From NCBI RefSeq assembly GCF_030867095.1, contig NC_081831.1, forward strand, positions 63,130,716 to 63,194,715: a DNA stretch of 64,000 nucleotides, in the 5' to 3' direction. A program made the position numbers and the translations under genes. Positions 6,021-61,900 of this stretch are shown piece by piece. Position 1 is the first letter of the stretch; the number at the start of each line of letters is the position of its first letter. Origin of the DNA: Alligator mississippiensis. Its lineage: Eukaryota > Chordata > Crocodylia > Alligatoridae. The notes beneath the pieces were generated by a model. The model was given only the letters and a program-made list of their open reading frames with translations, searched no databases and was not told where the DNA came from.

Positions 6021-7120
6021 TTTCATAGTAGCTAGGGTCAGGAGGGACCTGAACAGATCATCTAGCCTGACCCCCTGCCACAGGCAGAAATGAATGCTGG
6101 GTTCACAAGACCCCAGACAGGTGATCGTCCAACCTCCTCTTGAATTTGCCCAAGGTAGGGGCGAGGACCACTTCCCTGGGAAGTTGTTTCCAGATTTTGG
6201 CCACCCTAACTGTAAAATATTGCCTTCTGATCTCTAACCTAAACCTATTCTCCATCACCTTATTACCATTGTTCCAGGTGGTGCTGGGGGGAAAAGGGCT
6301 CTCTACCTATTTGCTGTTGATCTCCCCTGTTGAGTTTGTAGGCAGCCACCAGGGCCCCCCTCAGCCTCCTCTTGCTGAGGCTGAACAGGTTCGGGTCCCT
6401 CAGTCTCTCCTTGTAAGGCCTGTCCTGCTGCCCTCTCACCAAGCGGGTGGCCCTCCTCTGAACCATCTCCAGGCTGGCCACAGCCCTTTTGAAGTGCGGT
6501 GCCCAGTACTGGATGCAGCACTCCAACTACAGCCTGACCAAAGCACATAGAGGGGGAGTATCACCTCTCTGGACCGGCTTGAGATGCACCTTTGGATGCA
6601 TGACAAGGTATGGCTGTCCTTGCTGGCTGCAGTCTGGCATTGGTGGCTCATGTTCATCTTGGAATCAATAATGACTCCAAGATCCCTTTCCGCCTCTGTG
6701 CTTTCAAGATGGGAACTCCCCAGCCTGTATGTATTCTGTGGATTTCTTCTCCCAAGGTGCAGCACCCTGCATTTATCTATGTTGAACCCCATCCTATTCT
6801 CATCTGCCCACTTTTGTAGTCTGTCTAAATCTAGTTGCAGCCTCTCTCTCCTTTCAAGTGTGTCCACCTTGCCCCACATCTTCGTGTCATCAGCAAACTT
6901 GGACAGCATGCTTTCTACCCCCTCGTCCAAGTCGCTGATGAAGATGTTAAACAGTGCGGGCCAGAGGACCAAGCCCTGGGGTACCCCTCTGCTCACATCT
7001 GGTGCCAAGTTGAGTACAACCCATCCACCATTACTCTCCATCCACCATCAGCCAATTTTAAACAGTGCGGGCCCAAGGACTGAGCCCTGGGGTACCCCAC
7101 TGCTCACATCTCGCCGGGAT
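6021..7120 (-). mobile_element. CR1 LINE, 3' part of ORF2 and 3' end, 5'-truncated
   Basis: On the minus strand the translation carries the CR1 reverse-transcriptase blocks GVPQG, then FNIFISDLDEG, then FADDTK (the catalytic F/YADD box). A thumb/C-terminal region DLDRLQKWADENRMGFN and an IDKCRVLHLG block follow. The 3' terminus is the reptile-type end near 6021. The element lacks the endonuclease and most of the RT, so it is a dead, 5'-truncated copy as is usual for CR1. A 111-bp stretch around the GVPQG motif is present twice (from 6949 and from 7060). The reading frame is broken downstream of the RT core. Confidence 0.92.
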
Positions 7121-17230: not shown

Positions 17231-18034
17231 TTATTCCTTTCTGCTCATTTTCAGCTTCTGTTTGGATATGGCAATGGCATAGTAGCCTTTAAACTTGACT
17301 AGGAAGATGGGGATTGGGATGATAATAGTTAACATGCCGAATATTGCAGCTAAGGCAGCCGTCACTTGGCCAAATGTGGTTAGAGGGATGATGTCTCCAT
17401 AACCCACCGTAGTGAGTGTGATGAGAGCCCACCAGAAGCAAATGAGAATGTCTGTGAAGTGTAAATCTCCAGTGAAGGAAGGGTGAATTCCCAGCAACTC
17501 GCCATAGAAAAAGAGGGAGCCAAAGAAGAGGGTTTCAAAGGCCAGCATCATCAGCAGGATACAGATCTCTCGGAGGATGGACTTGAGTGTGTAGGACAGG
17601 ACTCTCAGGATCAGAGGGGTCTCTATGAGCTTGGATATCTTCAGGAGTTTGAGGAGATAGACTACACGGACAGAGCCAAGCCAAAGGCCAAGTGTTGGCA
17701 TTTTCTGGATCTGCTTGGCTGTGAAGAGCTCAATGTAAACTGGGAAGAGGGAGAGAAAATCAACAACATTCAGGGGGTTCTTGAGGAACTTCTTTTTGTC
17801 TGGGCAGAAGCAAAACCGCATTGAAAACTCAAAAGTGAACCAGAGGACACAAAAAAGCTCCAGGTGGAGCAAGTATGGAGCCTGGTGGTAGTATGGCTCA
17901 TGGACGATGTGGGTGACTTCAGAATGGCTGACTATGGTGAAGTTACCAGCAAAGAAATCAAACTGGGCCTTTGTCTCCTCACAGAATATGATGACGATGC
18001 CAATGATGAACAGCAAAGAAACAACAGCCAAACA
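17231..18034 (-). CDS. KCNC-like coding exon 2 (S1-S6 and stop)
   Basis: Acceptor CCATTCCTCTGCAG precedes TGT (Cys165). 267 codons cover the whole membrane domain and end with TAA at 17231-17233. No donor is seen before the stop, so the short tail looks genuine. Confidence 0.92.
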   Translation of the reverse strand, partial: CLAVVSLLFIIGIVIIFCEETKAQFDFFAGNFTIVSHSEVTHIVHEPYYHQAPYLLHLELFCVLWFTFEFSMRFCFCPDKKKFLKNPLNVVDFLSLFPVYIELFTAKQIQKMPTLGLWLGSVRVVYLLKLLKISKLIETPLILRVLSYTLKSILREICILLMMLAFETLFFGSLFFYGELLGIHPSFTGDLHFTDILICFWWALITLTTVGYGDIIPLTTFGQVTAALAAIFGMLTIIIPIPIFLVKFKGYYAIAISKQKLKMSRKE

Positions 18035-20319
18035 CTGCAGAGGAATGGAAATGTGAAAGGTGACATTAGTTCAGTGTAAGGGCATCACATAAATTCATAG
18101 CTTCATTTCATCCATATGATCCCTCATTTCAGCCATATGATTCCCAGCATTAGACATTCCCTACTCTCAGACTAACTTTAACCCAATTTCCTTCTCAAAA
18201 TTGTTTCACATTCACAGAATCTTTTTTTCTCTTCTGTCCCTTCCTACAAAGTGGAGCCGAGTCAAGGAATATACCTTGAACTGCTGACATCTAAGATTGT
18301 AAGAAATGGGAGGTAGATCTGACAGCTGGAGAGTCATGGGCATGCATCATGGCTGATCATGGGGCAGATTCACTGGGTATATCCACACTGTTTCCATGGT
18401 GCTTTTGGGGAAGGATGCTCCCAGACATGCTCTGCCTACCTGGTCTGGCTTGTATATACCAAACCCAGAAATGTGAGGTTAAACCATTCTAAGGGCATCA
18501 TCAGAGACTGCCCTGGAGATATCTGTTTCCAGCAGGCTTGAGAGAGGCAGCAGGGGCAGCTTTAACACAGCATCTCTAGGATTGATGCCTGTGAACAGTA
18601 GTAGTTGGATAGGGCATGCTTGACAATGCTTCTTCTCCAGAAACACTAGAGGCATGGTGCAGAAGTACCCACTGAGGTCTCCCTAAAGCCAAGTATGTCT
18701 CAAAGGCCCTGCTGCTTCAGATAGGCTGGAAAATGTCTTCTGTCTTCTCCAATTTCAATTTACTACCTCAAGTACCTGTTTTTCTAATATGAAAGAGGTG
18801 TGGGAGGTACCAGCGAGGACATACTGTGTGCAGGGAATAGGGATAAACAGCAAGGGAAACAGCAGGAAGCATGAGAATAAGAGAAGTACTCTTGAAAGCA
18901 CTAAATAACCACTTAACTGTACAGAGCACAGCAGCAAATAGGCAGCACCAGCATGCAAAGCAGTGGGGCACAGCAAAGGGACATAACAACAGCAGGCAGA
19001 GCACAAGAGCAGAGATATGGCAGACAAAGATAAAAAGGAGTTTAAGTAATATGGAATAGGATATACTGGGGAGCTGACCCACTGCACAAACTGAAATCAG
19101 CTAGGGGCTAACAAGGACCTGGGACAGTTGCTTAACATTGGCTTGACCATTACATGATTTTAGCCTGTTTTTAAGGTCTAGAAAAGCAGGGGCCTGGGTT
19201 GAAAACACTGATAAAGAAGCAGATTTGATTTTGAGTTGCATCAGCCAGTACAGATGATAAATATCTGAAGTGACCATTTCACAAATAACCCGTAGCCTCA
19301 AAGCTGATCCACGGAGGCATTCAGCAGTTATGAAAATCAATCAGATCACAAAGTGTTCTGAAACCCCCAAATGGGATGCATTTGCAATAAATAGAAAGTC
19401 CGACTCTGTCCTCACCCCCCCATTTAGAGCAACCCAAATCCAGGAGTTTCAGTAAAATACCAGCGGGGGACATAACTGGCTCACAGGCTCCTAAATGTTT
19501 TGTATTGCTTATGTATGTTGTATTGCTTTTGTATGTTTTGCATTGCTTAACAACTAGTAGATAGCAGGACTGGAAATCTTGATGAGGTAATCGCAGTATG
19601 ATCCTGTGAATCAGAGCAAATGGAAATCCATACTAAAAATCTTGGTGAATCAGGCTTGTCCAGGGATATTTTTTGAATGCTTGTCCAGGGATATTTTTTT
19701 AATGCCATTATTCAAGTAGGTGTAAGTAAGACATGTGCATGGAGGTTGTATACTTATTAGTTTTTTCCCCAAGTTTCTAAATTCCAAGAACCCCAACAGA
19801 TACAGATTTGTGCTGGGGGAGCATTACCTTGGCTCCTAAAGAGGAATAAGGCTTTTCAAAGATAGCCCAGATCTTTGGCTGCCACCTGGCTCTCCAGCTG
19901 AAATCCCTTCTTTCCATCTGGACTATGAGACACTGGTCATCAGCAAGCTCATTCTCATCCCACATATTGAACTCTTCTGGCTGCCTCTCCTTGTTGTTCA
20001 GCTTCAGCCAACAACAGGGTGCTAATTGTGCGTCACTTATCTCCCAGAAGGCCAGCTCCTCTTCTAAGACTGACCTGCAGGTGTCTGCAGGGCAGTGGAG
20101 ATGCTTGGTTCTGTAATAGTTCAACACATAGCCAAAGAGTTCAGCACTCCTGTCAAAGAAAAATTCTTTGGTGCTAGAGTCATATTCATACATGCTATGG
20201 GCATGAGGCTCTGTGAGCCTGCACAGCTTGGTCCCTGGGAAGGTGCGGAGGGTGCTACAGTATGTTTCATGCCTGATTCCCCCAACGTTCAGGATGATCT
20301 TCTCCTTTGCACCTTCCAT
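17231..20319 (-). CDS. Kv3/KCNC-like (Shaw-type) voltage-gated potassium channel subunit, divergent
   Basis: Two coding exons, 20319-19828 and 18034-17231, joined in phase 0 give 431 residues. The start is supported by an in-frame TGA immediately upstream (20325-20323) and a good Kozak context (A at -3, G at +4). Residues 1-110 form a T1 tetramerisation domain (NVGGIRHETY, FFFDR, NYYRT) with the exact zinc motif H75-x5-C81-x20-CC103. S1 lies near 167-185, followed by a possible N-glycosylation site NFT at 195. S2 is CVLWFTFEF and S3 NVVDFLSLFP. S4 is at about 285-302, S5 near 315-335, the filter TVGYGD at 373-378, and S6 has PIP (404-406) where Kv3 has PVP. YYAIAISKQKL matches the Kv3 end of S6, then the protein stops after ten residues, lacking the long Kv3 C-tail. 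S4 is unusual: R287 is kept, the next charge is Tyr290, then Lys293, Lys296 and Lys299, and Glu302 replaces a basic residue. The frame is intact. Closest family KCNC1-4; no orthologue can be assigned by eye. Confidence 0.92.
19500..19550. repeat. degenerate 18-bp tandem repeat
   Basis: Three near copies of a 'tgtattgcttatgtatgt'-like unit in the channel intron. Confidence 0.6.
19655..19703. repeat. 25-bp tandem duplication
   Basis: 'cttgtccagggatatttttt' occurs at 19655 and again at 19680, about 140 bp from the end of coding exon 1. Confidence 0.85.
19828..20319 (-). CDS. KCNC-like coding exon 1 (T1 domain)
   Basis: 164 codons ending in AAG followed by the donor GTAATG. The end WQPKIWAIFEKPYSS sits where KCNC genes also have their T1-S1 intron. 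Confidence 0.92.
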
Positions 20320-20379
20320 CTTTCAGGGACCAGGGGGTGGCTGCACGTCCCCACTTGTTTCTCTTCACCTCTACAGGTC
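20320..20379 (-). other. 5' UTR part of KCNC-like coding exon 1, with candidate acceptor
   Basis: A strong pyrimidine tract and CAG (CTTTCTCCCTCTTGCAG on the minus strand) end at 20380, 60 bp before the ATG. The first coding exon probably has a spliced 5' UTR, as in other KCNC genes. Confidence 0.45.
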
Positions 20380-30924: not shown

Positions 30925-31204
30925 CAGGGGGTTTCAACTGGGGGTATGCATACCCTGGGGGTACTTCTGATGACCTCAGGGGGTACTTGGCAGCGGGTGC
31001 CCCTGCTGGCACTTCTGCCGTGGGTATGCTCACCGATTGGCTGTGGAGGATCCTCCCCCTTGGTCTGACTGGGGGGGGGAGAGACCCCCCTCCCCGGTCA
31101 CTGATTGGCAGCTGAGGGACCCCCTGCTCATTTGGCCACTGGGGGACTTCTGCCTTCTCAACCAGCCACTGAGTTACAATGACCCAAAAGGATGAAAGCC
31201 CCTG
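30925..31204. mobile_element. short hAT-like element (280 bp)
   Basis: The left end is CAGGGGGTTTCAACTGGG and the right end read inward is CAGGGGCTTTCATCC. The flanks ctcaaag and ctctaaag form an 8-bp target duplication with one indel. Non-coding, CCCC/GGGG-rich interior. Confidence 0.75.
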
Positions 31205-31789
31205 CTCTAAAGCCATTATGGGTACCAGGGGGTGTCCCGACAGGCTTTTTGGCCCAGTTGCCCTAGGCAGCCACCTTTGCCGCTTGCATGGAACAGGCGG
31301 CTTCAGCCCCGGTCTCCCTGCGCACCCAACACCGTGGGACAGAACGTGCGACCGGAGCAAAACTGTAGGGCTGGAAACGCCACGCGGGATGGGCACAGCC
31401 GTCACAGGTGGTCTCCCATGCGCCTCTGCTCCAACAGGGACAGCTGGCAACGCTTGCCACAGCAGGGTGGCTGCTGCCCTCAGTGCACCACTGAAGTGGA
31501 CGGAAATGCCTGGCATTCAAAAAGCTGTTGGGCTTGGCCCTAAGAAAGCCCTGAATTTCGCTTGATTTTGGCACCATTGCGGCTACAGGATCGCTCTTAG
31601 GAAGGGACGGGCAGGCAACACTAGGACTCCAGGGGATAAAGGGTGAGGGGCAGCTTCCCCGGGGGAAGAGAGAGGAAGCAGCTCCCCGGTTCCCGCGCAC
31701 TGCCGCCCGCCCCGGGCCCGAGAGCTCCACACTACCCGGCCCCCCAAGCTCCAGCGAGCCACGCTCCAAGCCTTTTATGACGCCATCAG

Positions 31790-31866
31790 CGGGCGCCCAA
31801 TGGGCGGGGGACGGAAGTTCCATCGGGCTGGGGCGGGCTCCCATTGGCTGCGGCGCGCGGCGGGCC
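31790..31866 (+). promoter_or_regulatory. LAS1L core promoter
   Basis: Within 70 bp of the ATG are a CCAAT box (31797-31801), an ETS-type CGGAAGT (31812-31818), GC boxes (31802-31810 and 31830-31837) and an inverted CCAAT (ATTGG, 31843-31847). No TATA box is seen. The arrangement fits a constitutive ribosome-biogenesis gene. Confidence 0.7.
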
Positions 31867-31994
31867 ATGGCGGGGCGCAGCGTGGTGGCCTGGCGCGGCA
31901 AGGCCGAGTGGGACCAGGTGATGGTGGGGCTGTACGGCGGGGACGGCCGGCTGCAGCAGCACGCGCTGGACCGCGTGTCGGCCTGGAAGAGCAG
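31867..31994 (+). CDS. LAS1L: LAS1L exon 1
   Basis: Encodes [18 protein letters not shown] to the W-K-S motif. Donor AG|GTGCGG, phase 2. The N-terminus lacks the extra residues before VVAW found in human. Confidence 0.95.
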
Positions 31995-34900
31995 GTGCGG
32001 GCCGGGCGGGGCGGGGGGAAGTGGTCCTGCCCTGCCCTGCCCTGCCCCTACCCCTGCATCAGCCCTTTCTCCTCCTGCGTGTCCGGCTGCAGCCCCCCCG
32101 GGGCTCTCGGCTTCCCCCCGCACAAGCCCTGCTTAGCCCCGTGCCCTGTGCTGGGTCCCGCGGCGCCATCTCTGCCCCAGACCCCTCCGTAGAGTCCCAG
32201 AGAAGTGGGGCCAGGGGCAGGTCCCCACCACCCCAGACACCGCATTGCCTGCGCACTGCCCGAGACTGGCATCGACCCCAACAGCACCCCAGCCTGCCAC
32301 AGGCAAAGTAGGGGAGCCGCGGTACTGACACCCCTCTTCTGTGAAAGGTTGCCAGCAGATGCTCAAGAGATCCCAGGTAGAGGCCATGCCCCCACTGCAG
32401 AGGAAGGCAAACACCCCGCACCCCTCATCCAGGCAATCTCATCATGGGGTAATATTGCTCTTGGACCTCAAATATGGCAGCAGTCTGACCTCGACCCTTT
32501 AGCCAGGAGCCTCTGGCTTTTGTCTCAGCGGGAGGGTTGGCACAGTCAGTCGGATGGGTACACACCACGGGGGGTTTGCCTTCCCCTGTAGTGGGGGGCA
32601 TGGCCCTCTACCCAGGCTCTCTTGAGCATATAGTGATGTTTCAGAGAAGCGGGGCGTTGACTGTCACAGTTCCCCTGCTTTACCTGTGCCAGGGTAGGGT
32701 GTTAGGTCTGTTGTGTCAGGGTTGATAGTTATCTTTTGTAGAGTGTAAGATAGATAATGGGTTTGTCTAGGATGGTCTGGATAGGACTGATCCTTCCTCA
32801 AGCATGGGGTTGGACTAGGATCAGTGTTTCTCAGCCCATGGATCACTACTCAAAAGTAGGTTGCAAGAATATATGAAAGGGTCATGAACAAAATTTTTAA
32901 TGTGGATCAGCAGACTTTTAAAGAAGGATCTGTTTTTAAGGAGAAAAATATGGGAAACTCTGGCTTTTCCCTTGCAGGCTGGCAGAGTTCCCACCTGTGA
33001 GGGGCTGCTTGGGGCCCCCATTCCCCACACATTAGGAGGCTGGGGGCAGGAGGCAGCAGGTCAGAAGTGAGAGGCACCAAGCTGGGACTGCCCGTCGGTG
33101 TTTACAAATGGGTCCTGGTACAAAAAAGGTTGAGGATCACTGGACTGGATGACCTCTGGAGGCCCCTTCCAGCCCTGCTTCTCTGTGAGACTGAGTCCTC
33201 AGCCTTGGCTGTAGCCAACACACAGGGTCTCTGAGGGGGGCTTAAAAACATCCTGGCACATGTAGCAGATGGTGAGGGAAGGGGGAGGCAGGGGCAGCCA
33301 GCAAAGCCCAGAAGCATGGGAAATGCCCAAAGTAGAACACCTCTTTTATCCCCAATCAGTGGCTGTCCAACCTCTCCTTGAAGACCTCCTGTGATGGAGA
33401 GTCCACAACTTCTCCAGTAAGTCTGCTGTCAAAAAGGGATTGGACAAGTTTTTGGAGGAAAAAGGCATCAGTCGCTATCAAGCATGGGGGCTAGGGGTAC
33501 AGCATCTGAATCAGAGCTTCCTAGATCTTCAATGCTGGAGGCCGCAAGTGAGAGAGGAACAGTGTGAAAAAACAACTCTGGTCACTCTGCCTTTCAGCAT
33601 CCACGCTCTTCCACACCATGGTGCAACACAGGCTTATGTTGCCTCAGAAGACTCGTGGGGCAGTGCCCACCAAGTGAACTACTGGAAAAGCAACAACAAA
33701 TTGTTTGGGACACCTAAAAACATAACAGGGACAGGAGTGAAGGCCACAGGTTTATAACTAGTGCACCGAGTGGGGACACCGAGTGCCCACTGCCATGCTG
33801 CAACAAAGGCCTATTTGGCACTTTAGTGGTTTATGGGTAAAAGACCCACCCTGTGAAACTATAAGCCCCCCCTCCAAAAAGGAGGCTACTAGGAAAGTGG
33901 CAACTAATTGTTGCTTGGAACAGATGATAACAAAGTAGCAATGGGAGTGAGGGTCAAAGGTTCAAAACTAGTGTGCCAAGGGGGTCACTGAGTAGAGCAC
34001 ACTGGGCAGTGTGACACAGGCCTATTTGTTGTCTAGGGACCCTGGACCAGTGCGTGCAAGGAAACACTATAAGCCTTCTTAGGGAGGCCACTAGTTAGGC
34101 AACAACTGAGTGCTTGGGACAGCGAAAGACAGTGGACAGGTGTGTGGGTCAAAGGTTTAAAACTAGGATGCCAAGGGTGGATACCAAGCAGAGCACACCG
34201 GGCAGTGCCTACTGGCACAATGTGACGCAGACCTATTTATCACATTGAGGAACGTAGGTCTAGGCCCACCAAGTAACCTACTGGCCTCCCTCAGGCAGGG
34301 AGGCTACAAAAAGGTGACAACTGATTACTGGGGATAAATAGTAAAAAAACGGACAGGAGTGCTGGTCAAAGGTTAATAACAAGAGTGCCAAGGAGAGACA
34401 CTGAGCAGAGCACTGGCATAGTGTGGCACTGGAGAATGGGCAAGATGGACCCAGTAAATGGCAGTAACCCAGTAAATGGCAGTTCTTATGTTCTCTCCTA
34501 ACCATGCTCAAGATGTCCCTCCAAGTCAGGGGCAGTCCACAGTACTCATATTGCCCTGGCCCTGCCCCAGCAATGGACCTTGGTTGAAATCATGCAGGGC
34601 ATCTCTTATTCCAGGCACGAGCAGAGTCTGCCAGAGAGGCCACACTAGTCCCTGGTTCGTGCTGCAAGTCAGTGATGACTTGAGTGGGCTAGGAATCCAC
34701 CTTCTCTCCATCCTGCCATCTTTATCCACTACCTCTTGCAGCCTGAGGCTACAGAACTAAGGGGGAAAAAAGAGCTTAAACTCAAATGTTTAATTATGAT
34801 ATGTCTATAGAAAGTATTCCCCTTACGTTTTCTGTATCTGTAGGTATGGACAGAGAATGCCTTTAGCTGTGGATTGCACTACTGATCTGATTCGCTGTAA

Positions 34901-37900
34901 AATCCTGGATATGTCTGGCAATGTGAGCTCCCACGAGCTGGTCCTTTCCTATGGTCTAGCCCTGGTGAGGTAAGACTTAAACTGTTAGATACACTAAGGG
35001 ATGTGGGGAAAAAAATCCAGGGAGGGCATGATTCCCTTTGATAATTTAATTCTGTAGCTCTCCCAACAGCCAAAGTAGGGTTTGCAAATTAAGCCTTAAG
35101 AAAAAACAGAAAGAAAAATGTCTTCTGTTTTTGCACATCAAGTTATGGTAGTTTTTTCTTGTATGTAACCTACACACAGGTTTGTGAATCTCATCACTGA
35201 GCGCAAACAGAAGATATTTTACATTCCTCTGAGAAGACTAGCTAAAGAGGTAAGTATTGGATTCCTTAGTGGAGCACTTCACAAAGGAAACGTCACAGGC
35301 CCTCAAGGCCATTTAGTTTACAAACCTTATTTTTTGTGTCACATTTTTTAAAACAGCATTAGGGTTAGTGCATAGATCTATTTTGAGGGGAGAGAAAGGA
35401 TGAGGACAGTGGGCTGGGAAAAGAAGCACATTCTCATGAAGACAGCTTGCTTAGCAAAGATGAAGTAACAGTAGCATTTGGGGACTCATACTCACAGCTC
35501 TGTCTCACATGCAGGAATGGGAATAACAGCTTGGTAGGTATACCCCCTCCGATTTTCCTTGGTCTGAAGTGCTGCTTTTGATTTCTAATTCTGAAGGAGA
35601 GAAGGAAGTAGTCTCCAATGACCAACCAGGCATCAAAATATTGAACTCACTGCAGTAAATGAGTATTTTCCAACATGAACTATGGCCTAAACTGCTTCAT
35701 AGGATTAAATAATGATAAGGATCTCAGTGTGAACAGTACATCTCTTAAAAGCATCACCTAACGTTGTTGCAAACATTTCAGACCTTTGGAACTTCAAACT
35801 ACAGGTAATTCCTCCCAAACCTTTGTTTAACTTCACTCCTGCTCCAGTTCCTGGTAATTTCTCTCCTTAGTTGCATTGAGGGGCCTTTAACATGGGCTGG
35901 TCCTTAGAACTACGCAAATGACACTCTTGCACAAACTACCAGGCACCTCGCTCAAAAACACCAAGAACACCCTAACTGACCACAGGGCACAGTCACTGTC
36001 CTGCCACTGCAAGAACATAAGGATGTGAAGTAGTTTAAGATAGTCAAGAAAGGGGACCATGCTACCCTGCTGCACTGCCCCCTGTTCCCTCCCCCCCTGC
36101 CATGGAGGTAGTGGGAAGAAAATAAATAGACAAGACAAAGGTTAATCTGACTGCAAAATAGCAAACGTATAGAGGGACTAGTGTTTTACTTGAAGGTACT
36201 TCTAAAGAGTCATAGATTTTCTTGAAGGGATGATTCCTAACTAAAGTCATATTAAGGGTAGTGCGGAAGAAGAGACATCCTCATCCAAAGCTTGGAATGA
36301 AGAAGTTGATGAAGCAGAGGTGTAGGAAGGCTATTCAGACAGGCAGAGCCACAGAGAAGGATGTTCCAGGCTATAACAGGCTTTTAGTATCTAGCCTTAC
36401 TCTTGTGATTGCCATTAGATGCAACACGTGTTGTTCAGAAACAGTTGTGCTTCTTTTTAAGATGAATATTCCAGTTTGGGTTGTGGATCTTCGTCATGAT
36501 CTGACCCATGGGAAGCTGCCCCAGCTGAATGCATGCCGAAAAGGTAAGTGCCATGCTCATCCTACTTTGCATGAAAGGAACTTTTCCACCCAGGGTAAAC
36601 TATAACATCTTTCTAGTCTCCTGTGCATTACAAATTTTCATTTTTACCTGGGAGAAGTGTTATAATCTGTGCATTCTCCTTTGCCTGAGGAAGGGCGTAT
36701 GAGCCCAAAAGCTTGCAAATAAAGGATTTTTTTTTGCAACTATTTAGTTAGCCTAATAAGAGATATCATCTCTGCCAAGAGTTCTGCATATTTTTTTGCC
36801 TGTAGACCAACATAGCTAAAACATGTATCCATGCTCGTCCTACACACACAGCACATCTGCTTCCCGATCTCGGAGTCATCTTACTCTGGGATGCTCTCTT
36901 CTTGTGGGTCCGCTAGGTGGTGCTGTAATACCAGAGTCTGCTGCCCACGTAGTAGCAGGTGATAGTGAAAAGCAGTTCCTCCCAGGGGAGGCTGCAGGGA
37001 GAGTCCAGCTAGGTGGAAGTGATTGGCATGTCCCCGATAGAAGGCTGGCAGGAGGAAGGGGAAAGAATGGGGAGGAAGAAAGAAAAAGCTAGGGGATGAG
37101 ATGCAGCAAAAGGTTTCTTTCCTCAAGAGAAACCATCAGGCTTCTCCACATCTGGGTTGGGGCAGGGAAGAATGGGGGGAATCCTATCAGAGATGATCCT
37201 GCTCACTTGGTTGAAGGTTTGAAGTTCCCCTGTAGCTTAAGTCCATTTAGCTTACAAACATACAAGCATTATAAATCCCATCTGCTGGTAGCAGGGACAG
37301 AGGGTTTCAAGACTGGGGAAGCCCAGGCCCAGTCCTGTCTGAGTCCCAGCCCAGGGCGCCGAGGTGAAGCTTTCCAACTGGGTAATTCTTGCCAGCCCTC
37401 ATACCACATCCTCTATCTGCCCCTCAAGCTAGCTGTTGTCATCACCTCCCATAGTGGCAGCCTGAAGTCCTGCTACTGCTTCTCAGGCCCAGACTTTCCT
37501 CCAGACTGCATGGGCCTTCCTTTTTATCTTTCCCTTGCAGGTTGGGTCTCATTCCTGATTGATTAGTCAGAAGACTTCAGCTGACACAGGGGCCTAATTT
37601 TCCATTAGGGCTCTGGTTAACCCTTTCCTTGCTTTGTGGGGTTATTGAATCTTTCTTGAAGAGGGGGATTCTGGCACCTGATTTATCAAGGGGGGGACCT
37701 TGATAAATGAGAGAATTTTTTTAGAAGTTTTGAGAACTCATAATGCTTCTAGTGAAATAGGATATTCAGCACCTCTGAATAGATGGCCTGATTTTTAGGC
37801 TTTTAAACATATGTTGTGGAACCTGTAAGCCTCAGTCTTAGTACTGAGATGCCAGAGAAACTTGGCTAGAATCCATGTTGGATTGGGTAGTGGCATTTGA

Positions 37901-43900: not shown

Positions 43901-46900
43901 AATTGCACCCAGTCAGCCCATGGAGCAGGGGGCCAGAATCCTGCCTGCCACATAGCCACACAGCTCTTCCTGTTTGGCTCTCCTGTGCCTCAGCCAGGCT
44001 CACTGCCACCTAACACCACCAACCAGGGCCCGGGGCTGACTCCCTGAGCCTGCTGCCAGCTTAGGCCTGCTCCACCCTGCCTCAAATTGATGCTGTCCTG
44101 GGCACATGTGTAGATGCTGCAGTCAGGAACATTGTACTCCGTCCAGCTCAAAGTTCACTGGAGTTTATCAAGCCACATTAACTGCATGTGTAGATGCACT
44201 CAATGTCAAACAGCTGGTATGACTGACTGATATCCACTGTTTTGAAGCCTTTTATGTTAATTTTTTTCCCTTACATTTTTGTATTGATATGTCGAGTAAG
44301 CATTTTCACAAAACGGGGTAATTAAATGGACAACAAACTGAAGTGATGGAAAGAAATAGAGACTTTTCTCTGAAACTCAACAGAAGCAACATTGTTAACA
44401 GAGGAGCGAGATTTGCCTTATTATTATTTTTGCAAGACTTTCATCATGGTGGTGCAGCAGGTCAGTCCTAACCTGGCTGACTTAGAAACAACCTTCCATG
44501 TAAAGACAGTGTTCCAGTAACCTAATATTATTTGCCCCAGGCAAGGATTTTGAGTTAGATGCTTCATTGGGTACAAGTAGTTCTTACATCCCTATGTTGA
44601 TGAACTAGAGACATTCTTGAATGGGCTGCTGTTGATAAAATGGATAGTCTGAAATTCCAAATAGGACTGTAAAGTGGGAAGTGCATTCTCTGTAAGGTCC
44701 ATGAATAGAAACATGCTTGCAGACAAATTAATCTCTGGGATCAAGATCAGGGGTGAGTAAAATACAGCCCGCGAGCCGGATCTGGCCCACCAGGCCATTC
44801 TGTCTGGCCCATGGGACCCCTAAAAATTTTAGAAAATATTTATCTGCTCCTGGCTGCCTGTCAAAGGTGACATGATACCCCCAGGGGTAGTAGGACCCAG
44901 GGGGAGCCAACATCAGGAGACAGGAGCCCAGCCCGCCCCACTCCTAGCCAATTCCCTGCTTTCCTGAGCCTGCCCTGTTCCAGCACCCTGTGGCTCCCAG
45001 CTGCATTGCTGGACCGGGAGCACGGGCCTGCACCAGTACCGTGTGTGTGTGTGTGTGTTCATAGGGCGAGTGCCACACGCACACCCCACCATACACATGC
45101 ACCCATACCTGCTTCTCACTGCTTTGCACACAGACCCCCATACCTACCCACACTCCACGTATCCACACCCACATGCTCCCTCACCCCACATCTATCCCCC
45201 CCACATCTATCTACCCCCACATCCTCCCTTACACTCCACACACCCACAGCCCCCCACAAACATACCCCCCCACACAATATACAGGAATAAGACTTGATTT
45301 TAAGCTATTATATACAGTCACCTCTATGTGTACTACACAAACGCATGTAAATCAAAACAAAAATATTTTTTGAAATCAAAGTAATGAATGTTTTAGATGT
45401 TCACTTTTTAGAATATAATTTGGTATTTTTCTGGTTCCAAGATGGAAAAACCCCTTGCTGAAAGGAGTACTTCTGGGGGCAAGGGGAGGGACTTCTAGTG
45501 GCAAAAGTCAGGGGTTAGGGAGCGGAACTTCCAGTCCCAAGATGGCAACCAGGAGGCAGGGCACCTGTCAAGTGGCGGAGCTGCCAATGCAGCCCTCGAC
45601 AGCTTGCCAAAATTCGATAAGCGACCCTCTCCCCAAAATTTCCCGCTCCTGAGCAAGACCATAGCAATCCTCATCTGAAATTTGGAGTTCAACCAGTTGC
45701 TTAGACAACTTCCTGGTGCAAGTGTTGGAGCAGCCAGCTAGGGGCCATGCTCTTCCTGACATGCTGCTCACAAACAAAGAAGAAATGGTGGGAAATGTAG
45801 CAGTGGATGGAAACTTGGGCAGTTGTGACCACAAGATGATTGAGTTCAGGATCTTGAGGAAAGGAAGGATGTGGAGCAACAGCATAAGGACCATGGACTT
45901 CAGAAAAGCAGACTTCGGTTTGCTCAGAGAACTCAGGGGCAGGATCCCCCGGGGAGTCCAGGAGAGCTGGCTGTGAGGGCCGTCCCGGGGGGTGAATTGG
46001 GGCGACTGTTCCAGGCCCCACGCTTTGGGGGGCCCCACAGAGCTGGGTGGAGTGGCCGCAGCGACTCTGTGCTGCTGTTGCCACCGGCTTTGTGTCCGGC
46101 TGCTCGCTACCCGCCTGTGGCGGTGGCTTCTTCGCATCCAGGGCGTGTGGGATAAGGGCAGGGCCCTGCATGAGCATTATCTCTTATTAATGCTGTTTTG
46201 TCTCATGCAGGTGTTTCAGGAGTTTCAGCCCTTTGGGAAGGCCCAGAAAGTCTGGTGTAATCCTTCCTCTGAGGTGGAGTGGATCTTAGCCCAGATCAAA
46301 GACTTGGTGCAAGAAAACAGGTATGGTCCCAAGAGAGAAGCACCCTCTACCCCAGGGAGGGCCCCAGTCCTGAAGAGTGCCTTATCTACTGTTTTCTAGT
46401 ACCATTTTACTTAGGAGTGCACTAATAGAGATTTTGGGGGCCGATACCAATAGCCAGTTTTTAAGGTGGCATATGGGCTGATACCAATCTGATTTCCAAT
46501 ATGGCTTGGAGAGCTGCGTCCAGCTGGTAAGTCTGTTGTGGTGGAAGGGGAGTGGGGAGGGAAGGGGCATGGGGAGGCAGATCAAGGCCCCTGCGGTGAG
46601 GGAGGAGTGGGACTGGGGTTTGGGCTGGGGTAGGCACTGTCCAGCTGGGGTGGGGCAGGGCGTGGTACAGAGCTGCAGCTTGTCTGGAGGAGGGGGAGGC
46701 TCCCATTGCTGCGTGCACCCCAGGAGGGCATGGGGGTGTGTGCCTCTGGATCTGCATGGGCCATGGGCAGGCTGGGCTGCCGCTGCGGGCTGAGGTCAGG
46801 GCTGTGAGGGACTCTGTGCTGGGCCCCCAAAATATTGACCCAAAATTCGCCATAGCCCCCCACAGCCGCCCCTCTGAGCGCTGCCGCTGCCCGCCCTGAG

Positions 46901-49900
46901 CACAGCCCGGCCCAAGCCACCCCCCACCCTGCACTGGGAAGAACCCGGCACAGCCCCGGCCCAACCCACAGCTGCAGCCCACCCTGCCCTGCGCAGATCC
47001 AGGGGCACACGCCCCCTGTGCCCTCTCAGGGTGTGCGCAGCAGCAGGAGCCACTCCCCCTCCCCTGTGCCCTCCAGACGAGCTGCAGCTCCGTCCTCTGC
47101 CCCGACCCGGCTGTGCAGTGCCTGCTCTAGCCCCTGCCCCACTCCCCCCTCACCGCGGGGGCCTTGATCTGCCCCCCCATGTCCTTCCCTCCTCCCCTTC
47201 CACCACAACAGACTTACCAGTTACACGCAGTTCGCTACGCTGTCGGGCTGTGATCCTCTCCGCTGATGTGCTGCAATGCAGCTGCACACATGCACAGGGC
47301 ATTTTTCAGCCACATCAGGCCAATTTCTGACAGTTAATTTTCTTTATATCAGTGCTGATCCGATATCGGACCAATGTATCAGTGCGCCTCTATTTTACAG
47401 TGTGCCATTAAGTGAGTTACAGACAAAGCCATAGGAGGCTGCAGGTAATTCATTAGCATTTGAACTCTGCTAAAGAATGTGCTCTCTGCCAGTGGCTGGT
47501 CAGCAGCTGCTCCTCCTGGCTGACTTATTCATTCCTATTTCCTTTCTTCCATCCACAAACCACTGCAGCTACATGCTCATGCATGATCCTGGGGTAGTAG
47601 CTTTATTATTGACAATTGGCTGTGTCATTGTCATTAAGTATTGCTTTGAATGTTGACCATTGGCTTTTTGGTTTTAAGTTATAGCAAAACGTTTTGTCCC
47701 TGAAGTGGACTATAACCAGTGCTTTGCCAAACTGGGGTAGTGTTTCATGGAGGCAGTAGGCAAAATGGTTGCAGAGAGGAGGAAAGCAACGGGGAATGGG
47801 GCAGCAGTTTCTCGTGTACTTTACATTTCTGCAGTGCTTTCAACCTGAGGATCTTCAGGCATTGTGTGCCCGATTCAGTTTTACAGCCGCCTGATCAGGT
47901 AGATGGGTTTGAGCTCCCACAGCAGCCTTAGGGGAATGATAGTCCTGTTCTATATCATTAGATACTCTTATGAGCTGTGGCTTAGAGCAGTGGGGGTCAA
48001 CCTTTTTCACAGGCATGCTACAAATTAGCCCCACACATTACCTGAGTAATACTGTGATTCCCTTTCCTATCTGGTCTCCTGCTTTGCTGTCTGTTTCCTG
48101 CTCTATCTGCTGCTGTGCTGCCTACCCCCTCTCTGATCTACCACTTGCCACACACAGAGTCTTCCCTTGTTCTTGTGCCTTAGCTTGGCCACCCTCAGCC
48201 TACAGCATAGTTTCTCAACCTGTGGTATGTGTACCCCTGGGGATATGCGAGACACAGGTGGGGGGTACACGGTTACCCCAACACACTCTGTTTCTTGCCC
48301 TCTTTTCCTCTCCAAACTATGGCAAAAACTTTGGTGCGCCATGCATTGCATGGCACTTTACATTCCCCAGTAATAATTTGGCGTGCCATGCTTTGCGTGG
48401 CACTGGGTTCAGTCCTCCTAGCTTTGGCCAACATCACCTCTAGCCCAGGTACATACTTGAGTTGTGCACCCCTGGTGTGAAAGGTGGCAACCCTACCCAC
48501 ACCAGATCAGACATCTGTCATATCACGGCTTTATATACACAGCCCTTCTTCCAACATATGATACACATTAGTCTGTAAATATAAAATCCCCTGGAAAATT
48601 GAGTGTTGGGGTACTTGTTAAAGTTTTCAGAAGTTAGTGGGTACTCGCTACTTAAAAGGTTGAGAAACACTGGCCTAGAGGACTCTGTTGGATTGAGGTC
48701 CATTATGTTAGTTGCCTTATAGACGTATCTGAAGACTGGTCTTTGTTCTAAGGAATACACATGCTAAGACAAGAAACATCTGCAGTTTTGTGGGAAAGAA
48801 AATAGCAGCCCTTCTATAGATACTGAATGCAGATATCAGTTAGCAAAATCAATATCAATAAGCTTTTTCTAATAATCAGAACTATGAAAACTGACAACTG
48901 TTTTCCATGTGCCTTTCATCCTGGCCAGTTAGCTGCGTCTTAAAGGCACTGTGCTGCCAGGAGAGCCTGAGGAAGTGTTAGGTAGTAGCTTTCCCCTCTG
49001 GAAAAAGGCATGAAAATCTCAGCATGGAAAGGTGGCTGATGGATACTTGAGGAAGCTAGTAAGGTGAGATACTGGGGGGAGAGTTGTGAATGGCTTTAGA
49101 GAGAACAATAAAGCCGTGTTTAAAGTGAAATGGGGTTCACTGGAGGGTTTCAGTATGGCAAGTGATGCATTTGCCTTAGGCAAAAAGGAATCTTAGTGGA
49201 TGGAGTTGCTGTAACTGAGAAGCTGTGCACTTGGGTATGATCACACACATTGTCTCTATAATGTTGCCTTATTGGTGCACTTATCCTTTTGATGATATCT
49301 ATTCAGGGTTTTGTTGCAAGGCGATTAGAGGATTAAACTCCTGTATATACTCCCCTATGCTCCACGCAGAGCATGAAGGAGCCACAGAACAGCTGGCAGT
49401 ATCCAGTAGGATCCTTGAAATCACAAATTTGCCACTTAGCTTGGGAGTCCCCCAACTCTGTCTGAATTGCTGCTCTAGGTTTCATGCCCCCTTAGATGTC
49501 CCCTCTCTCATCTTCTGCTCCATTTTCTCTGCTGTGCAAGAGAATCAGGAATGCTTAGCCCTGGAAATATGTTTCCAAGTCAATCCAGAACATAGTTCAG
49601 TGCTTAGAATTAGTCTTCTCCAAATCTCAGAACATGGAGCTGATTGTAGCTGTGCGTGGCCTTTCAGAGGCATCGCTGTTTTGAAGCTGCTGTCCTATTT
49701 CTGCTTAATATCACTGTAGGCAGTGGGGGAGCTGGATGTGCGTCAGCCCAATTAAAACACTGGGAGCTGATGACATGATAGGGAACTGGTGGCCTTAGGG
49801 CTGCAGACCTGAGCACTCTCGGGGTTCTGCAGCACTTACTTTCTGCCAGTGGCGTCACAGAGCTACGCTAACATTTCCCCTCTAAATTATTTATGCCACA

Positions 49901-55900: not shown

Positions 55901-58900
55901 CACCCCCATCAGTGTAGGTGTCATTTCAATGTCCTGGCCAAGGAACAGTTGTATAATTGCACTTTCCTTCCAATTTCAACGGATACAGTGTCATCACTAC
56001 CAGCCAAAGCTGGCTAAGTATTTTGTGCCCTGTTAAGCTGTTGCTTAAGCTGTTCATTAACTAAATGAACCCATGTATACAGCTTGCAGTGTTTCAGGGG
56101 CATGATACGAGATGCTTCAGAAATGTAAGGACTGACTGGGACTTCCAATTTCTCTAGGGATGCGGTAGCTGAAGTGCTGCTGGAGGACGGCTTTCTCATC
56201 CCAACGGTGGAGCACCTGGACACTTTAAATATCAAGTCTGATGGTGAATGCCTACTTTATTTTCTCTACTGAATTGTTGGCCTCTCTGAAAATCCTAACT
56301 CACGGGTTTCCCAGTGGGTGGTCTCTGGTTTCCCGAATTTTATTACACTGGCAGAGCTTTATTGCTTTCCTTCATGCAAACCCTTTTATAGTATCTTTTT
56401 AGACAAAATAGCTCTTACTTATGTGTGAGCTGAGCTTAAGTTGGCAAAGGATGAGCAAAACAGAGGTAGGTTTTCCTGTGGTTTACAGCATGATTCAATC
56501 AGGCATCCTACTTTCTGCTTTTGCTGAAATATTGTGTTAATTATCCGTTCATTGCTTTTCCTATTTCTTCTCTTGTTATGGTTCTCAGTGAGAGTAGGGT
56601 GCCTGGAATAAAGTGCAGGACTACTGAACTCAGTACCCTTTGACCCAAGCACTGCACCAGTTGTCATGTCGAAAGTATTTCTGTTTAATTATAATTTTTT
56701 TTATATAGAAACCAAAGAGTTGCTGGACGTCCCTCAGCTATTTTACTGTTTCTGGCAGCCTCTGCTCAAGGGTCTCCATTCCCAAGACTTTACACAGGCC
56801 TTGATAGAGAAAATGTTTGCTAACCTGAAACAGTGCTCTGAATCTTCAGAACTCCGGTCTCAGTACCTGATCAACTGGATTGCTGAACTCTTGACTGCAA
56901 GCACCAAAGTTAAAGCCAGTGAGTGAATGCCTTCAGGTTTACTGAAACTGAATTTAAGATCCTCTCCTGTACAGTCTCAAGAGAGAGAAAGTCAACAACA
57001 CTTGCAAGCTGGAAATGCAGGGATTCTAATTATTAAACAGGCTCCATAAATTTATAATGGCTTTCAGGATTGACAGATGAAGACAACTGCATTCAGTCCG
57101 CTGCAGTGGATGGAAATAATTTTTATTAAAAAATGCATGACGGCTTCATTAAGACTTGAAAATGTGGTGATTTTCCCAGGGTGGGAGCATAGAATTATAG
57201 AGAAGTTGGGCTGAAAGGGACCTCAGGTGGCTATCTAGTCCAACCCCGTGCTCAAGGCAGGATCACCTGTATCCAAACTATCTTATTACAAATCCAAACT
57301 ATCCTATTACAAATACCTGTCTAGCCTATTTTTAAAACTATACAACCAACTCTGCCACACAGATACCTGGCATATTTCCCAAAACCTCAGACACCTTCAC
57401 CTGGCACAAGTAAAGCAGGGGAATGAGGGCACTGTCAGTGTCTTGCCACTATAAGGACAGAAAGTGGTAGTTAAAAATACACTTGACAGAACTAAGTAAG
57501 AGGAACATTTCCTCACTGCAGAGAAAGACGAAAAACCCATAGTCCATTCTGCTAAAATTCCTTCTTGATTCCCAGATGTGGCCTGACCCTGAGTGGAGGT
57601 GCAAGAACCTCTGCGTTTTTTTAGTCCCAGCAAGAGCTTTGGCACACCCCAGTCAAAACCCCAAGTCTTGACAGCAGCTAATGCCCAGTTCTTCTGAGGA
57701 ATGTGAAAAAAACCCTTGACACCTCTAGCAACAAGAGGGGAAAAAATCCTCCCCAGTCCCATGTCGAGGTCAGCAAAGCTCAGAAGAGAGAAAACTAGAC
57801 GCTTCCCCCCCCTGCTGTGCAACCCAGGGACCATAACCTGGTTCTAGACAGATGACATCTTGACTGGAGAGCTAGCATTCCCCTTTTTTGTCATCCTACC
57901 CCTTCCATGAACTTATCCTGGTTCCTTAAATCTTTAAATCCTGCAAACGAGATATCAAAACTGGCAAATCTGTACTGTTTTGCTCTGGAAGCAGCTGCAT
58001 TTTTGGGTTTGTCTACACTAGAAGAGCTGCTGCTCTTCCAGCTATGCCAGCTTTGTTATGTGGGCAGAGTGCCCTTGTAGAGATGCAGCATATGCCCACA
58101 GGAGTTGTTTTTGCACAGCTATACCACGTCCCTGAATGACATAAGGAAAGCAAACAGAAACCCTTTTCTGTCTCCATAGTTGTATCCATGCCAGGGGTTT
58201 CATCTGCGTAGCTACACAGGCTGGAGGCTGTGGTGTGTGTTTTGTTCCCTCCAAACACCCCCCTTTTTCCTCCACCCACATACATGTAGCTGTTATAGCT
58301 GTGCTGCCAAACCTTAATAGCATAGACCTGACCTCAGAATTGGGTGGAAGAGCGACCTGCAAAATGCCTTAGTCCTAGCTATTAAGGAGAGTAGTGGCTT
58401 AAAAAATGTCAAGGCGTGGGTACAACCAGTGCATTTCTTCTTTGTGAAACTCCCTCTCTTCCCTGTCTTCCTTTTTCTAGGGAAGAAAATGGAATCCTGT
58501 TACCAGAGTCAGAAAAGGAAGCTGTTTCTCCGCAGAATCCCTTTGCAGTGGCTAAAGCTCATTGATAATTGCTTGGGAGCTCCCTGCTGGGCAACTCCCC
58601 ACCTCCTTCGGCTGTAAGTGACCCCATGACTTGGGGAAAAGCATCGGGAGCAGGAAGCAGAGTTCTGTGGTGTCTCTTGACTGTCCAGTATGTTGTTATG
58701 ACCAATAGTTCCTTCCACTTCTTTCACTTCTGTGGAAAATTTGGTTTATATAACGCATATTGTTCCTGCTCTTTTCCCTCACTGTGATATGAAAGAGGAA
58801 AAAGCAGAACTTTTCAGGGTGTTTCCTTTGCAAGGAAAAACTATAAATGTGCTGTAGAACAAAACTTTCTCTCATATCACTGACTTCTAAACATTCAAGA

Positions 58901-61900
58901 TACTGGAAAAAGCAGGGGTTGCTGACATGGCAGAGAACATGTAACTCATAACTTCCACTGAACAGTGGTCACTCCCATTTCACACAAAAACTTCAATTAG
59001 GATTGAAAAAGAGAGAGAGACACTGCTAAAAAAGAAAGCAAGAAAGAGGGGTTAGCTTTTGCCTTGTACCCCTGGAGAGGATTATCACCATTTCCTACCA
59101 ATCCACTACAAAGGGGTGGGAGAGCAAGCCTGGAAGCACCCTTGTGCAAGAGGCTTCTGGTTTCTGTAACACTCGGTTCTTGCATGTGAGACTGATTCTG
59201 TTCTTCCCTTCCTAGGATTCTCACGGGTATGGAGCCTCCTTTGCCTTCAGACACTCAGAAAAATCTTCTTTACCTTTCCTCCATCTACACTCAAGAAGGA
59301 AGTTCCCTCTCCAGTCCAGGGTCTTCTTCAGATACTAGAGGACAGCCAATTTATACAATTGAGAGCCTACAGTGGAAGGCCAGGCAAGTTAATCTGGCCA
59401 AAGTGCAAGGCCAGATGGCAAAAAGGCAAGAAACTGTACTGGGTGGAGGCGAAGATGAAGAAGAGGGAGAGGAAGGAGATGAGGAGGAAGAAGAGATGGA
59501 AACAGAGTCACCTTCTTTGGAAGAGCTCCTGCATCCTGTGAACACGTTGGCTGTAGCTGAGAAAAGGGCTGCACTGCAAGGATCTGTTTGGCAAATTAGT
59601 TCAGGTAAAAAGGTCACAGACTTCCTCGCTCTCCCTTTCTCACCAGCAGGTGTCATTTGAAATGCAGAGGCTCCTGCAGACTGAAGCTTGTTTCAAAGCC
59701 ACGTCCATGCCATGCCCCTGTAAACTTCATTTTTCCAGCCTTCCATTTGCATATAGATGTCTCTTCTCTAGCAGTGCCTTAAACTAGGATTGCTTCTTTT
59801 ATGTCCATGTAGTTAATGTTTCATTAACTTCATCATCAAGCATCACCCTCTGTGGTTAATATTCCAGTGTAGCTGATTGATGGAGGAGTGGCTGCCAACT
59901 AAGCAGTAAAGAAACACCAGTGCTTCACGGACTGCAGCAAGATGTGCCAAAACCTTCCACTTATCAGACTGGAATCACCAAAAAGATCACTGGGATCACT
60001 AACCCCTGGCATGGATGTTGTTTATTAGTGATGTATTTAGGTGCTTTCCAAGCAGCTGCCATTTCCCAGGAAGTTTACAGTCTACATAGACAGCTGGCAG
60101 AGGGATGGACCAAGACAGTAAAAGGGAGTGACCTAGCAGTTTAGCAAGTGCTTCGTTACTTCCCTGACTCCGCTGCTCTTTGCCAGTTTAGACTTGCTGG
60201 GGTTTTTTGGAAGGTGTGATAGTATTCTAAGATTTACTGTGGTCATGGGTGAAGTGTGACTGTAGGAGGGTCTTGCAGAGAGGGAGTCTGGGTAGAGAAG
60301 AGCCTGGGAAGTTTGGTCTGGGGAGACACTCCAGGCCCAGGGCTGCCTCCAGGCCCAGGGCCCGTCTGGGAAAGACAGTTAATATTTCTGCCTTCCATCA
60401 GAGAGAAATTTTTCTGAGTAAAAATATCCTTGGTTGTTGGAGCAGCTCTGCCTAGTTAACCTGACGTGGGCAGCTTACCGGAGATGAATGCTTTCCACCT
60501 TACAGTTTGAATCATATAAAAAGGAAAAATGCATATGAAGCCCCCTCCCTGCTGTCTGACATCTTTAAGTAGCTTGTTAGGTACTTTTCATGACGTTTTT
60601 GTTTATATCTGACTTGTAAAAAAAATGTAACGTTGGCCCAAAGTACATCAATATAGTTCTGGACCTAAAAAAAAATTGCAAAAACTCTCCCTCTACCCAG
60701 TAGAGTAGAAGCAGATGACTGTATCCAGGTGATTCACAGCCCACTAAATTCATAGCAGGTTGCTGTATTTCGGGATGAGCTGCTCAACTCTTTGCTGTGG
60801 TTTTACTTCAGAGAGCCTCGCTTCTCTTTTTGGGTGGATGTGTCAGTGGGCCCACAGACCTGATGGAGAAGTGGTGCCCTCTGAAGTAAAAGCCACGGTA
60901 GTCAGGTGAAGTGCTGCAGCTGTACTGCACAGCTGTTTGCTTTAGCTGTGTATGCTCCCAGTTAGTTTGCAAACTCTCAGCTTCACAGGGAGTACGAAAC
61001 CTAAGCTGGCAGCTATCCAGGTTCTGCTGTACCACAGCATTTCATCGTGGTAGTGATGTTTTGCCGTGGCCTGCAGTATTTAGTAGTTGACCCTGCAAGG
61101 GAGAGAACTTGCTTCACAGACATGGCAACATGTATCTCAAAGTTGCAACAAAAAGCACCAAACACTACTTGTGCCATCCTTTAATTGTGTTACGGTGTCA
61201 CCTGGAACCGCCATCACAGATGAAAGCAGTGTTTTACCTCATGCTCTAAAGCCACGAAGCCACAGTCCTTGCCTACTCAAAGAGCCTGGTCCTAGTTTCT
61301 GTTTGAGAACTGGGAGCAAGTTCTGCCTGGCAAACAAGGGTCCCCAGTGTTTTGTTCACATTTTGTGCATGGCTGAAATAGAGTCTTTCTAGGGCCAAGC
61401 TGGGCATTGACATTGTCTTAATGGTTCTGCCCTCAGTAAGTAGCTCATGGCAGGTGGGGTGGGTGCTGCACTTGACGTTTCCATGTACAATAACTTCCTT
61501 ACTAGGAATTTTACCTTTTGAGATCACTTTCCCATCCGTCCCCTGCCACCACCCATCACCATTCCAGAGTCAACAGCCCATCATAGGAAAGTAAGTGAGA
61601 CTGAAACCTTTGCTTTCCACATAGCAGTTGCATCTTTCATTCAGCTCCTGAAACCTAACTCAGCAACAAGTCTCTTCTTATCTGTGAAATTTTGAATCTG
61701 AGGGGAAAAATGATGAGTATGGATGGTCTGTTTTTAGAGTGCAAGGCTCCCAGTCAAATGAAGGAGCAGGTTGTGGTGGAGGGGATACAGCAGTGTTGGC
61801 TGTCACTGTAAGAACCTACCTGTAAACCGGAAGAGAGGGTTTGTATTTCCCCAGGGTCTTTGTGGGTCTTTTCCTTTTGCCTGCCTTCCCCACACCTGCA

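Follow-up and report, generated by a model that had tools for sequence, protein, structure and literature searches.

A 64,000-nucleotide stretch of the Alligator mississippiensis genome (contig C8, positions 63130716-63194715; hereafter the window) contains an intact gene for a potassium channel subunit that belongs by descent to the KCNC (Kv3) family, is distinct from KCNC1-4, and carries an extensively altered voltage-sensing S4 segment. This gene (the window gene) lies on the minus strand at window positions 17231-20319, where two exons encode a Kv channel subunit of 431 residues with no internal stop codons. We give about even chances to the proposal that it is a functional partner subunit of Kv3 channels with a weak voltage sensor, that is, an intact and selectively constrained fifth KCNC, probably the one named KCNC1L. 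Its parts are as follows, in window coordinates.

Coding exon 1, 20319-19828 (492 nt), minus strand: start codon and T1 domain, ending at the Kv3-type junction after PYSSLGAK.
Intron, 19827-18035 (1793 nt), minus strand: GT-AG (GTAATG...CTCTGCAG), at the T1/S1 boundary.
Coding exon 2, 18034-17231 (stop included), minus strand: S1-S6 with the pore, then a very short C-tail; Ion_trans, PF00520, E 2.3e-24.
T1/BTB_2 tetramerisation domain, residues 8-102, 20298-20014, minus strand: Pfam PF02214, E 9.3e-25.
Altered S4 charge ladder, 17668-17621, minus strand: R287 (R1), Y290 (R2), K293 (R3), K296 (R4), K299 (K5), E302 (R6).
K+ selectivity filter TVGYGD, residues 373-378, 17410-17393, minus strand: TLGYGD in KCNC1-4 of the genome.
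S6 hinge PIP, residues 404-406, 17317-17309, minus strand: PVP in KCNC1-4, PIP in KCNB.
Putative piece of the 5' untranslated region, 20320-20379, minus strand: strong-looking 3' splice site with a pyrimidine tract and CAG at 20382-20380.

Both Pfam domains score far above the cut-off, and the intron occupies the same position (PYSSxxAR/xVAF, the slash marking the junction) as in KCNC1-4 of the same genome. The T1 zinc motif, read from the translation, is exact (H75-X5-C81-X20-C102-C103); we take HX5CX20CC to be the Kv3-type form of this motif. The charge-transfer partners, S2 WFTFEF and the Asp of S3 NVVD, are unchanged. The sequence confirms what an earlier note on this DNA had claimed about integrity, namely that the frame, the splice sites, the zinc motif, the filter, the S2 Phe and Glu and the S3 Asp are all intact. 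The description of the channel as Kv3-like in the same note also stands, the best solved match being Kv3.1 (E 6e-109) and the next Kv2.1 (E 6e-63), as does that of a short C-tail, which extends 6 residues past the conserved KQKL. Position -3 relative to the start codon is A and position +4 is G, and the frame is closed by a stop two codons before the ATG, so that exon 1 holds no N-terminal extension; KCNC3 and KCNC4 of the genome have additional in-frame N-terminal sequence. The pyrimidine-rich 3' splice site at 20382-20380 suggests an upstream non-coding exon.

Several other accounts of the locus were considered and rejected. A pseudogene with a broken frame is ruled out by the intact frame, a retrogene by the intron, and a mis-spliced or misread KCNC1-4 by the presence of all four elsewhere in the genome. 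A longer C-terminus reached through a donor just before the stop is ruled out by the final 57 nt of the frame, which hold no GT; splicing to another C-terminus from further upstream may occur. An AlphaFold2 model of exon 2 alone was too poor to inform (mean predicted local distance difference test score 46, predicted template-modelling score 0.28).

Membership of the KCNC (Kv3) family is firm. Searches of the genome (2.35 Gb, 195 contigs), which score best candidates only, gave 48 BTB_2 matches; 30 of these were read and include five Kv3-type loci, the window gene and four others whose T1 domains are 47-59% identical to it. Exon 2 gave 33 matches, headed by the same five loci, with the four others at 39-40% identity. 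From their sequences and KCNA neighbours we take these four to be KCNC1 (C2), KCNC2 (C4), KCNC3 (C5) and KCNC4 (C14). Each is thus present separately, in agreement with the earlier view that the window gene is none of the four. A tree of 20 rows groups the window gene with KCNC1-4 at 100/97 and places it outside them at 80/92. The Kv3 clade including the window gene is recovered at 99/99 in a 13-row tree, in which the inner order is open; the silent and KCND rows were removed from that tree, as was one KCNA-type gene on C14 whose T1 part reads as X (masked or unsequenced bases). A 7-row tree weakly joins the window gene to KCNC1 and KCNC3 (78/94). The branch leading to the window gene is very long in all three trees, at 2.26, 3.27 and 2.29 changes per site, compared with contrasting values of 0.08-0.15 in the 20-row tree. 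Identity to KCNC1 is 42-45%, the best or near-best match, with KCNC3 marginally ahead in one comparison. The canonical Kv3 S4 (R-R-R-R-K-R) and PVP are replaced by R-Y-K-K-K-E and PIP in the window gene; membership by descent stands because we count the canonical S4 and PVP as usual features of the family and not as defining ones.

An extra sauropsid KCNC paralogue, KCNC1L, was named by Zemel et al. (eLife 2023, PMC10241522), where its function is left open. The window gene is likewise an extra KCNC beyond KCNC1-4, and the only one found, among the 30 of 48 T1 matches that were read and the five highest-ranking of the 33 exon-2 matches. As the sole extra KCNC found in the genome it is probably KCNC1L, and the gene itself is thus probably already in print under that name. 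The account of KCNC1L that we draw on from PMC10241522 gives no sequence features, S4 or function with which to compare it. In the literature searched we found no paper naming KCNC1L besides that of 2023, and among the matches listed neither the sensor change nor the comparison with silent subunits appears in print. A 2013 songbird survey describes six novel K-channel genes, and those it names, in the part consulted, are not KCNC (PMC3711925).

The S4 of the window gene reads R287-VV-Y290-LL-K293-LL-K296-IS-K299-LI-E302, and in all four KCNC genes of the genome R-VV-R-FV-R-IL-R-IF-K-LT-R. Relative to KCNC1-4, R2 has become Tyr, R3 and R4 Lys, and R6 Glu. The ladder is therefore as the earlier note had read it, except that the third Lys is no change, K299 being the ordinary K5 of KCNC1-4. 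Nominal charge over the six positions falls from +6 in KCNC1-4 to +3, and of R1-R4 three are still positive, two of them Lys. R1-R4 are described as the residues that carry the gating charge (PMC3355112). The structural context of these changes is otherwise that of KCNC1/Kv3.1 (PDB 7pqt, 8f1c, 7phh), with which the window gene shares domain order, intron position, zinc motif, charge-transfer centre and pore; apart from S4 it differs in having PIP for PVP and in lacking the long C-tail. A Tyr within the ladder has a precedent in the silent subunit Kv6.4, where it stands at R4 and, the authors suggested, may explain the smaller apparent gating charge (PMC3355112); Kv6.4 is also the subject of PMC12637593 and PMC12206438. 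R4 is Tyr in three KCNG-like genes of the alligator genome as well, the Tyr of the window gene being at R2 instead.

The divergence of the window gene is distributed unevenly along the protein. Its identity to KCNC1-4 is 56-59% in T1, 35-36% in S1-S3, 37% in S4 and the linker, and 40-42% in S5-S6, where KCNC1-4 among themselves (five of the six pairs) reach 73-87%, 73-77%, 98-100% and 88-95%, respectively. The segment most strictly kept in Kv3 thus belongs to the most altered ones of the window gene, whose best-kept part is the T1 assembly domain. For three silent-type subunits compared with one KCNB the corresponding figures are 34-52%, 37-45%, 59-68% and 53-60%. There are 72 residues in S2-S6 that are identical in 14 conducting Kv subunits, all from the same genome (8 KCNA, 2 KCNB and 4 KCNC, KCND not being in this set); the window gene has changed 25 of them and seven silent-type subunits 13-21, in a comparison that drew on 21 of the 29 loci outside the window and omitted eight, mostly ones divided between exons. 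The silent-type set was named by sequence recognition, so that the lack of the second proline in all seven is not independent of the naming, and the labels KCNG-like and KCNS-like are our own presumptive ones. One of the core changes, Asn to Lys in the S6 NNF motif (N229K), is common to the window gene and two KCNS-like genes.

The resemblance to the silent Kv5/6/8/9 subunits (KCNF, KCNG, KCNV, KCNS) therefore lies in fast divergence from a conducting parent, in many changed core residues, and in the individual changes of S4 Arg to Tyr (three KCNG-like genes) and NNF Asn to Lys (two KCNS-like genes). The differences are that the three such subunits in the tree group with Kv2, whereas the window gene groups with Kv3, and that only the window gene keeps the second proline of PXP. 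PIP itself is the normal Kv2 form, found in both KCNB genes of the genome and in the solved Kv2.1 chain. The earlier observation of PIP in S6 is thus correct, but its use as a sign of changed gating is not supported, and as evidence of silent behaviour it is rejected.

Constraint on the window gene is real but much looser than on KCNC1-4. Nonsynonymous divergence (dN) from KCNC1-4 is 0.51-0.55, compared with 0.14-0.16 among KCNC1-4. Residues universal in the KCNA, KCNB and KCNC rows are kept at 64 of 91 positions and those conserved in KCNC only at 55 of 152 (Fisher p 3.5e-7; a run of X in the T1 of one KCNA row leads to an undercount of universal T1 columns). This preferential keeping of universal residues implies that constraint tracks channel function, a pattern that a working channel would show and drift would not. 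The earlier impression that the gene looks functional gains support from these signs of constraint and from its intactness, as far as sequence can tell.

It is nevertheless conceivable that constraint on the gene has relaxed so strongly that it is a relic, on its way to losing function in this lineage but yet to collect a stop. The very long branch would fit such a history, as would the change of 27 of the 91 universal residues and the sparse polyadenylation signals, a single AATACA having been found in 1.2 kb downstream among the nine polyA-like hexamers scanned. Neutral simulations, with substitutions only and indels not modelled, left 352 of 1000 frames stop-free at 0.02 substitutions per site, 11 at 0.1, and none at 0.2 and 0.5. 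A very recent loss is compatible with the first of these values, but drift of 0.1 would seldom spare the frame. Together with the intact frame, splice sites, zinc motif, filter and charge-transfer residues, and the avoidance of universal residues by the changes, this makes the relic explanation improbable.

How might a constrained subunit of this type act? Since its T1 domain keeps the Kv3 zinc interface, it should tetramerise with Kv3.1-3.4, and it would join mixed Kv3 tetramers through that domain. To these it would contribute a sensor whose charge-transfer centre is kept but in which one of the four R1-R4 charges is missing, two of the remaining three are Lys and R6 is acidic; the S4-S5 linker and the lower S6 are remodelled as well. 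The mixed channel might activate with a shallower and shifted voltage dependence, or closed-state inactivation might be promoted, as by Kv6.4 on Kv2.1. In this way the window subunit could alter the slope, threshold or inactivation of Kv3 channels.

The main rival to this proposal is a homotetrameric K+ channel formed by the window subunit alone, in which the reduced S4 charge would make the voltage dependence shallower and shift it. It ranks first among the rivals since pore, filter and hinge all look usable: the filter, PXP, the charge-transfer centre and the acidic residues of S2 and S3 are intact, and PIP occurs in conducting Kv2. Against it stand changes at 25 of the 72 core S2-S6 residues, a higher number than in any of the seven silent-type subunits counted, and the Glu at R6 and the Lys in the NNF motif, both of which sit in the coupling region. 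We consider a self-sufficient channel possible, though on balance doubtful. Both it and the partner-subunit proposal lead to one pharmacological expectation. After the filter the window gene has II, where KCNC1, 3 and 4 of the same genome have MY and KCNC2 MC. A Tyr after the filter goes with sensitivity to external tetraethylammonium (TEA), and with Ile in its place weak external TEA block would be predicted in either case. In KCNC2 exon 2 of this genome the residue just after the filter is Cys (GYGDMCP) and in KCNC1, 3 and 4 it is Tyr, at what we take to be the site tied to external TEA block.

A number of points weigh against the partner-subunit proposal. Known silent subunits are described as lacking the second PXP proline (PMC4623978, PMC3440756), and since the window gene retains it, a homotetramer of the window subunit could well open. 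Conservative replacements (I to V or L, for example) make up several of the 25 core changes. For the earlier suggestion of a weakly gated or silent subunit, the number of core changes speaks in favour, and their partly conservative character and the retained proline speak against. The partner described for silent subunits is Kv2 (PMC12184066), with one paper reporting an interaction with Kv7 (PMC11335225), and we met no example of a silent subunit partnering Kv3 in the literature on silent subunits; PMC3519636 deals with regulatory subunits of the Shaker family in a sea anemone. The identification with KCNC1L has a single basis, that no other extra KCNC was found, and the KCNC1L locus seems to be duplicated in lizards and snakes (PMC10241522); in the alligator we find one copy.

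The origin of the gene is a question separate from its function. KCNC1L is reported to be absent from mammals, amphibians and fish, with a possible origin after the mammal split (PMC10241522). This fits poorly with the proportion of synonymous differences (pS) between the window gene and KCNC1-4, 0.67-0.75, which is saturated as among KCNC1-4 themselves (0.58-0.73), although saturation prevents dating. That the gene is an older fifth KCNC branch, dating from the KCNC1-4 split or before and since lost from other vertebrates, and not a sauropsid duplicate of KCNC1, is an explanation that we rate somewhat short of even. It would account for the saturation, for the placement outside KCNC1-4 in the best 20-row tree, and for partly matching columns that show no preference for KCNC1 (3, 4, 2 and 5 columns match KCNC1, 2, 3 or 4 alone). 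Long-branch pull could produce the same placement, and neither the open inner order of the 13-row tree nor the weak union with KCNC1 and KCNC3 in the 7-row tree favours it. Approximately unbiased tests of pairing the window gene with KCNC1, 2, 3 and 4 gave p values of 0.145, 0.073, 0.139 and 0.031 in the 20-row tree and 0.247, 0.070, 0.351 and 0.076 in the 13-row tree, so that pairing with KCNC1 or KCNC3 is retained, and the origin inferred as possible in the eLife paper differs. The earlier note had proposed nesting inside KCNC1-4 as a check, and the answer is divided: the 20-row tree puts the gene outside, while the pairings with KCNC1 and KCNC3 are not rejected.

The gene is flanked by an ERM gene and by LAS1L, the latter divergently oriented and 11.6 kb away from the start of the Kv reading frame. 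The LAS1L features found in the window are these.

LAS1L, first Las1 match, 31885-31998, plus strand: PF04031, E 1.1e-5; not reported by the genome search.
LAS1L, further exon, 36456-36548, plus strand: PF04031; the sole Las1 place in the genome search.

The ERM C-terminal exon, 96 kb to the left of the window, occupies C8:63034404-63034568. We take LAS1L and MSN to adjoin at human Xq12, and the ERM gene is on this ground probably moesin. Neighbours were sought by a Pfam scan (E 0.01) of 217 selected open reading frames (ORFs; 106 + 111), drawn from 356 of at least 62 residues counted before the low-complexity filter, which matched Las1 twice and a reverse transcriptase once. The reverse-transcriptase fragment is at 6439-7047 (RVT_1, E 1.6e-9) and is presumably CR1-like, as would suit a sauropsid genome. 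A GC-rich region at 31000-32300 coincides with the first Las1 match and is probably the LAS1L promoter island; CpG observed/expected is 0.59 at 31-32 kb and 0.04-0.22 in 15 windows over 16-31 kb. A second GC-rich block, at 46000-47300 (~56% over 46-48 kb), probably lies inside LAS1L and has long overlapping ORFs, with no Pfam match among those scanned. The plus-strand open frames at 56612-56923 and 59196-59657, which gave no Pfam match above the cut-off, resemble what we presume to be later LAS1L exons. No repeats of at least 30 bases were found in the 14-24 kb part of the window.

The firing rate that neurons can reach is set by Kv3 channels. A review of 2025 puts the family at four members (PMC12184066), and a fifth subunit that is intact but has its S4 rebuilt would be a natural experiment on which gating charges Kv3 needs. 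If the modulatory interpretation is true, the window gene could be to Kv3 what the silent subunits are to Kv2. The fullest version of this idea is that a fifth KCNC dating back to the KCNC1-4 split, and since lost from mammals, amphibians and fish, became a dedicated Kv3-modulatory counterpart of silent Kv5/6/8/9, evolved independently of them and tuning high-frequency firing in sauropsids while being absent from songbirds; we think it unlikely in this complete form. Songbirds are reported to be without KCNC1L (PMC10241522), and the gene may thus have a bearing on differences in the brain between songbirds and other sauropsids.

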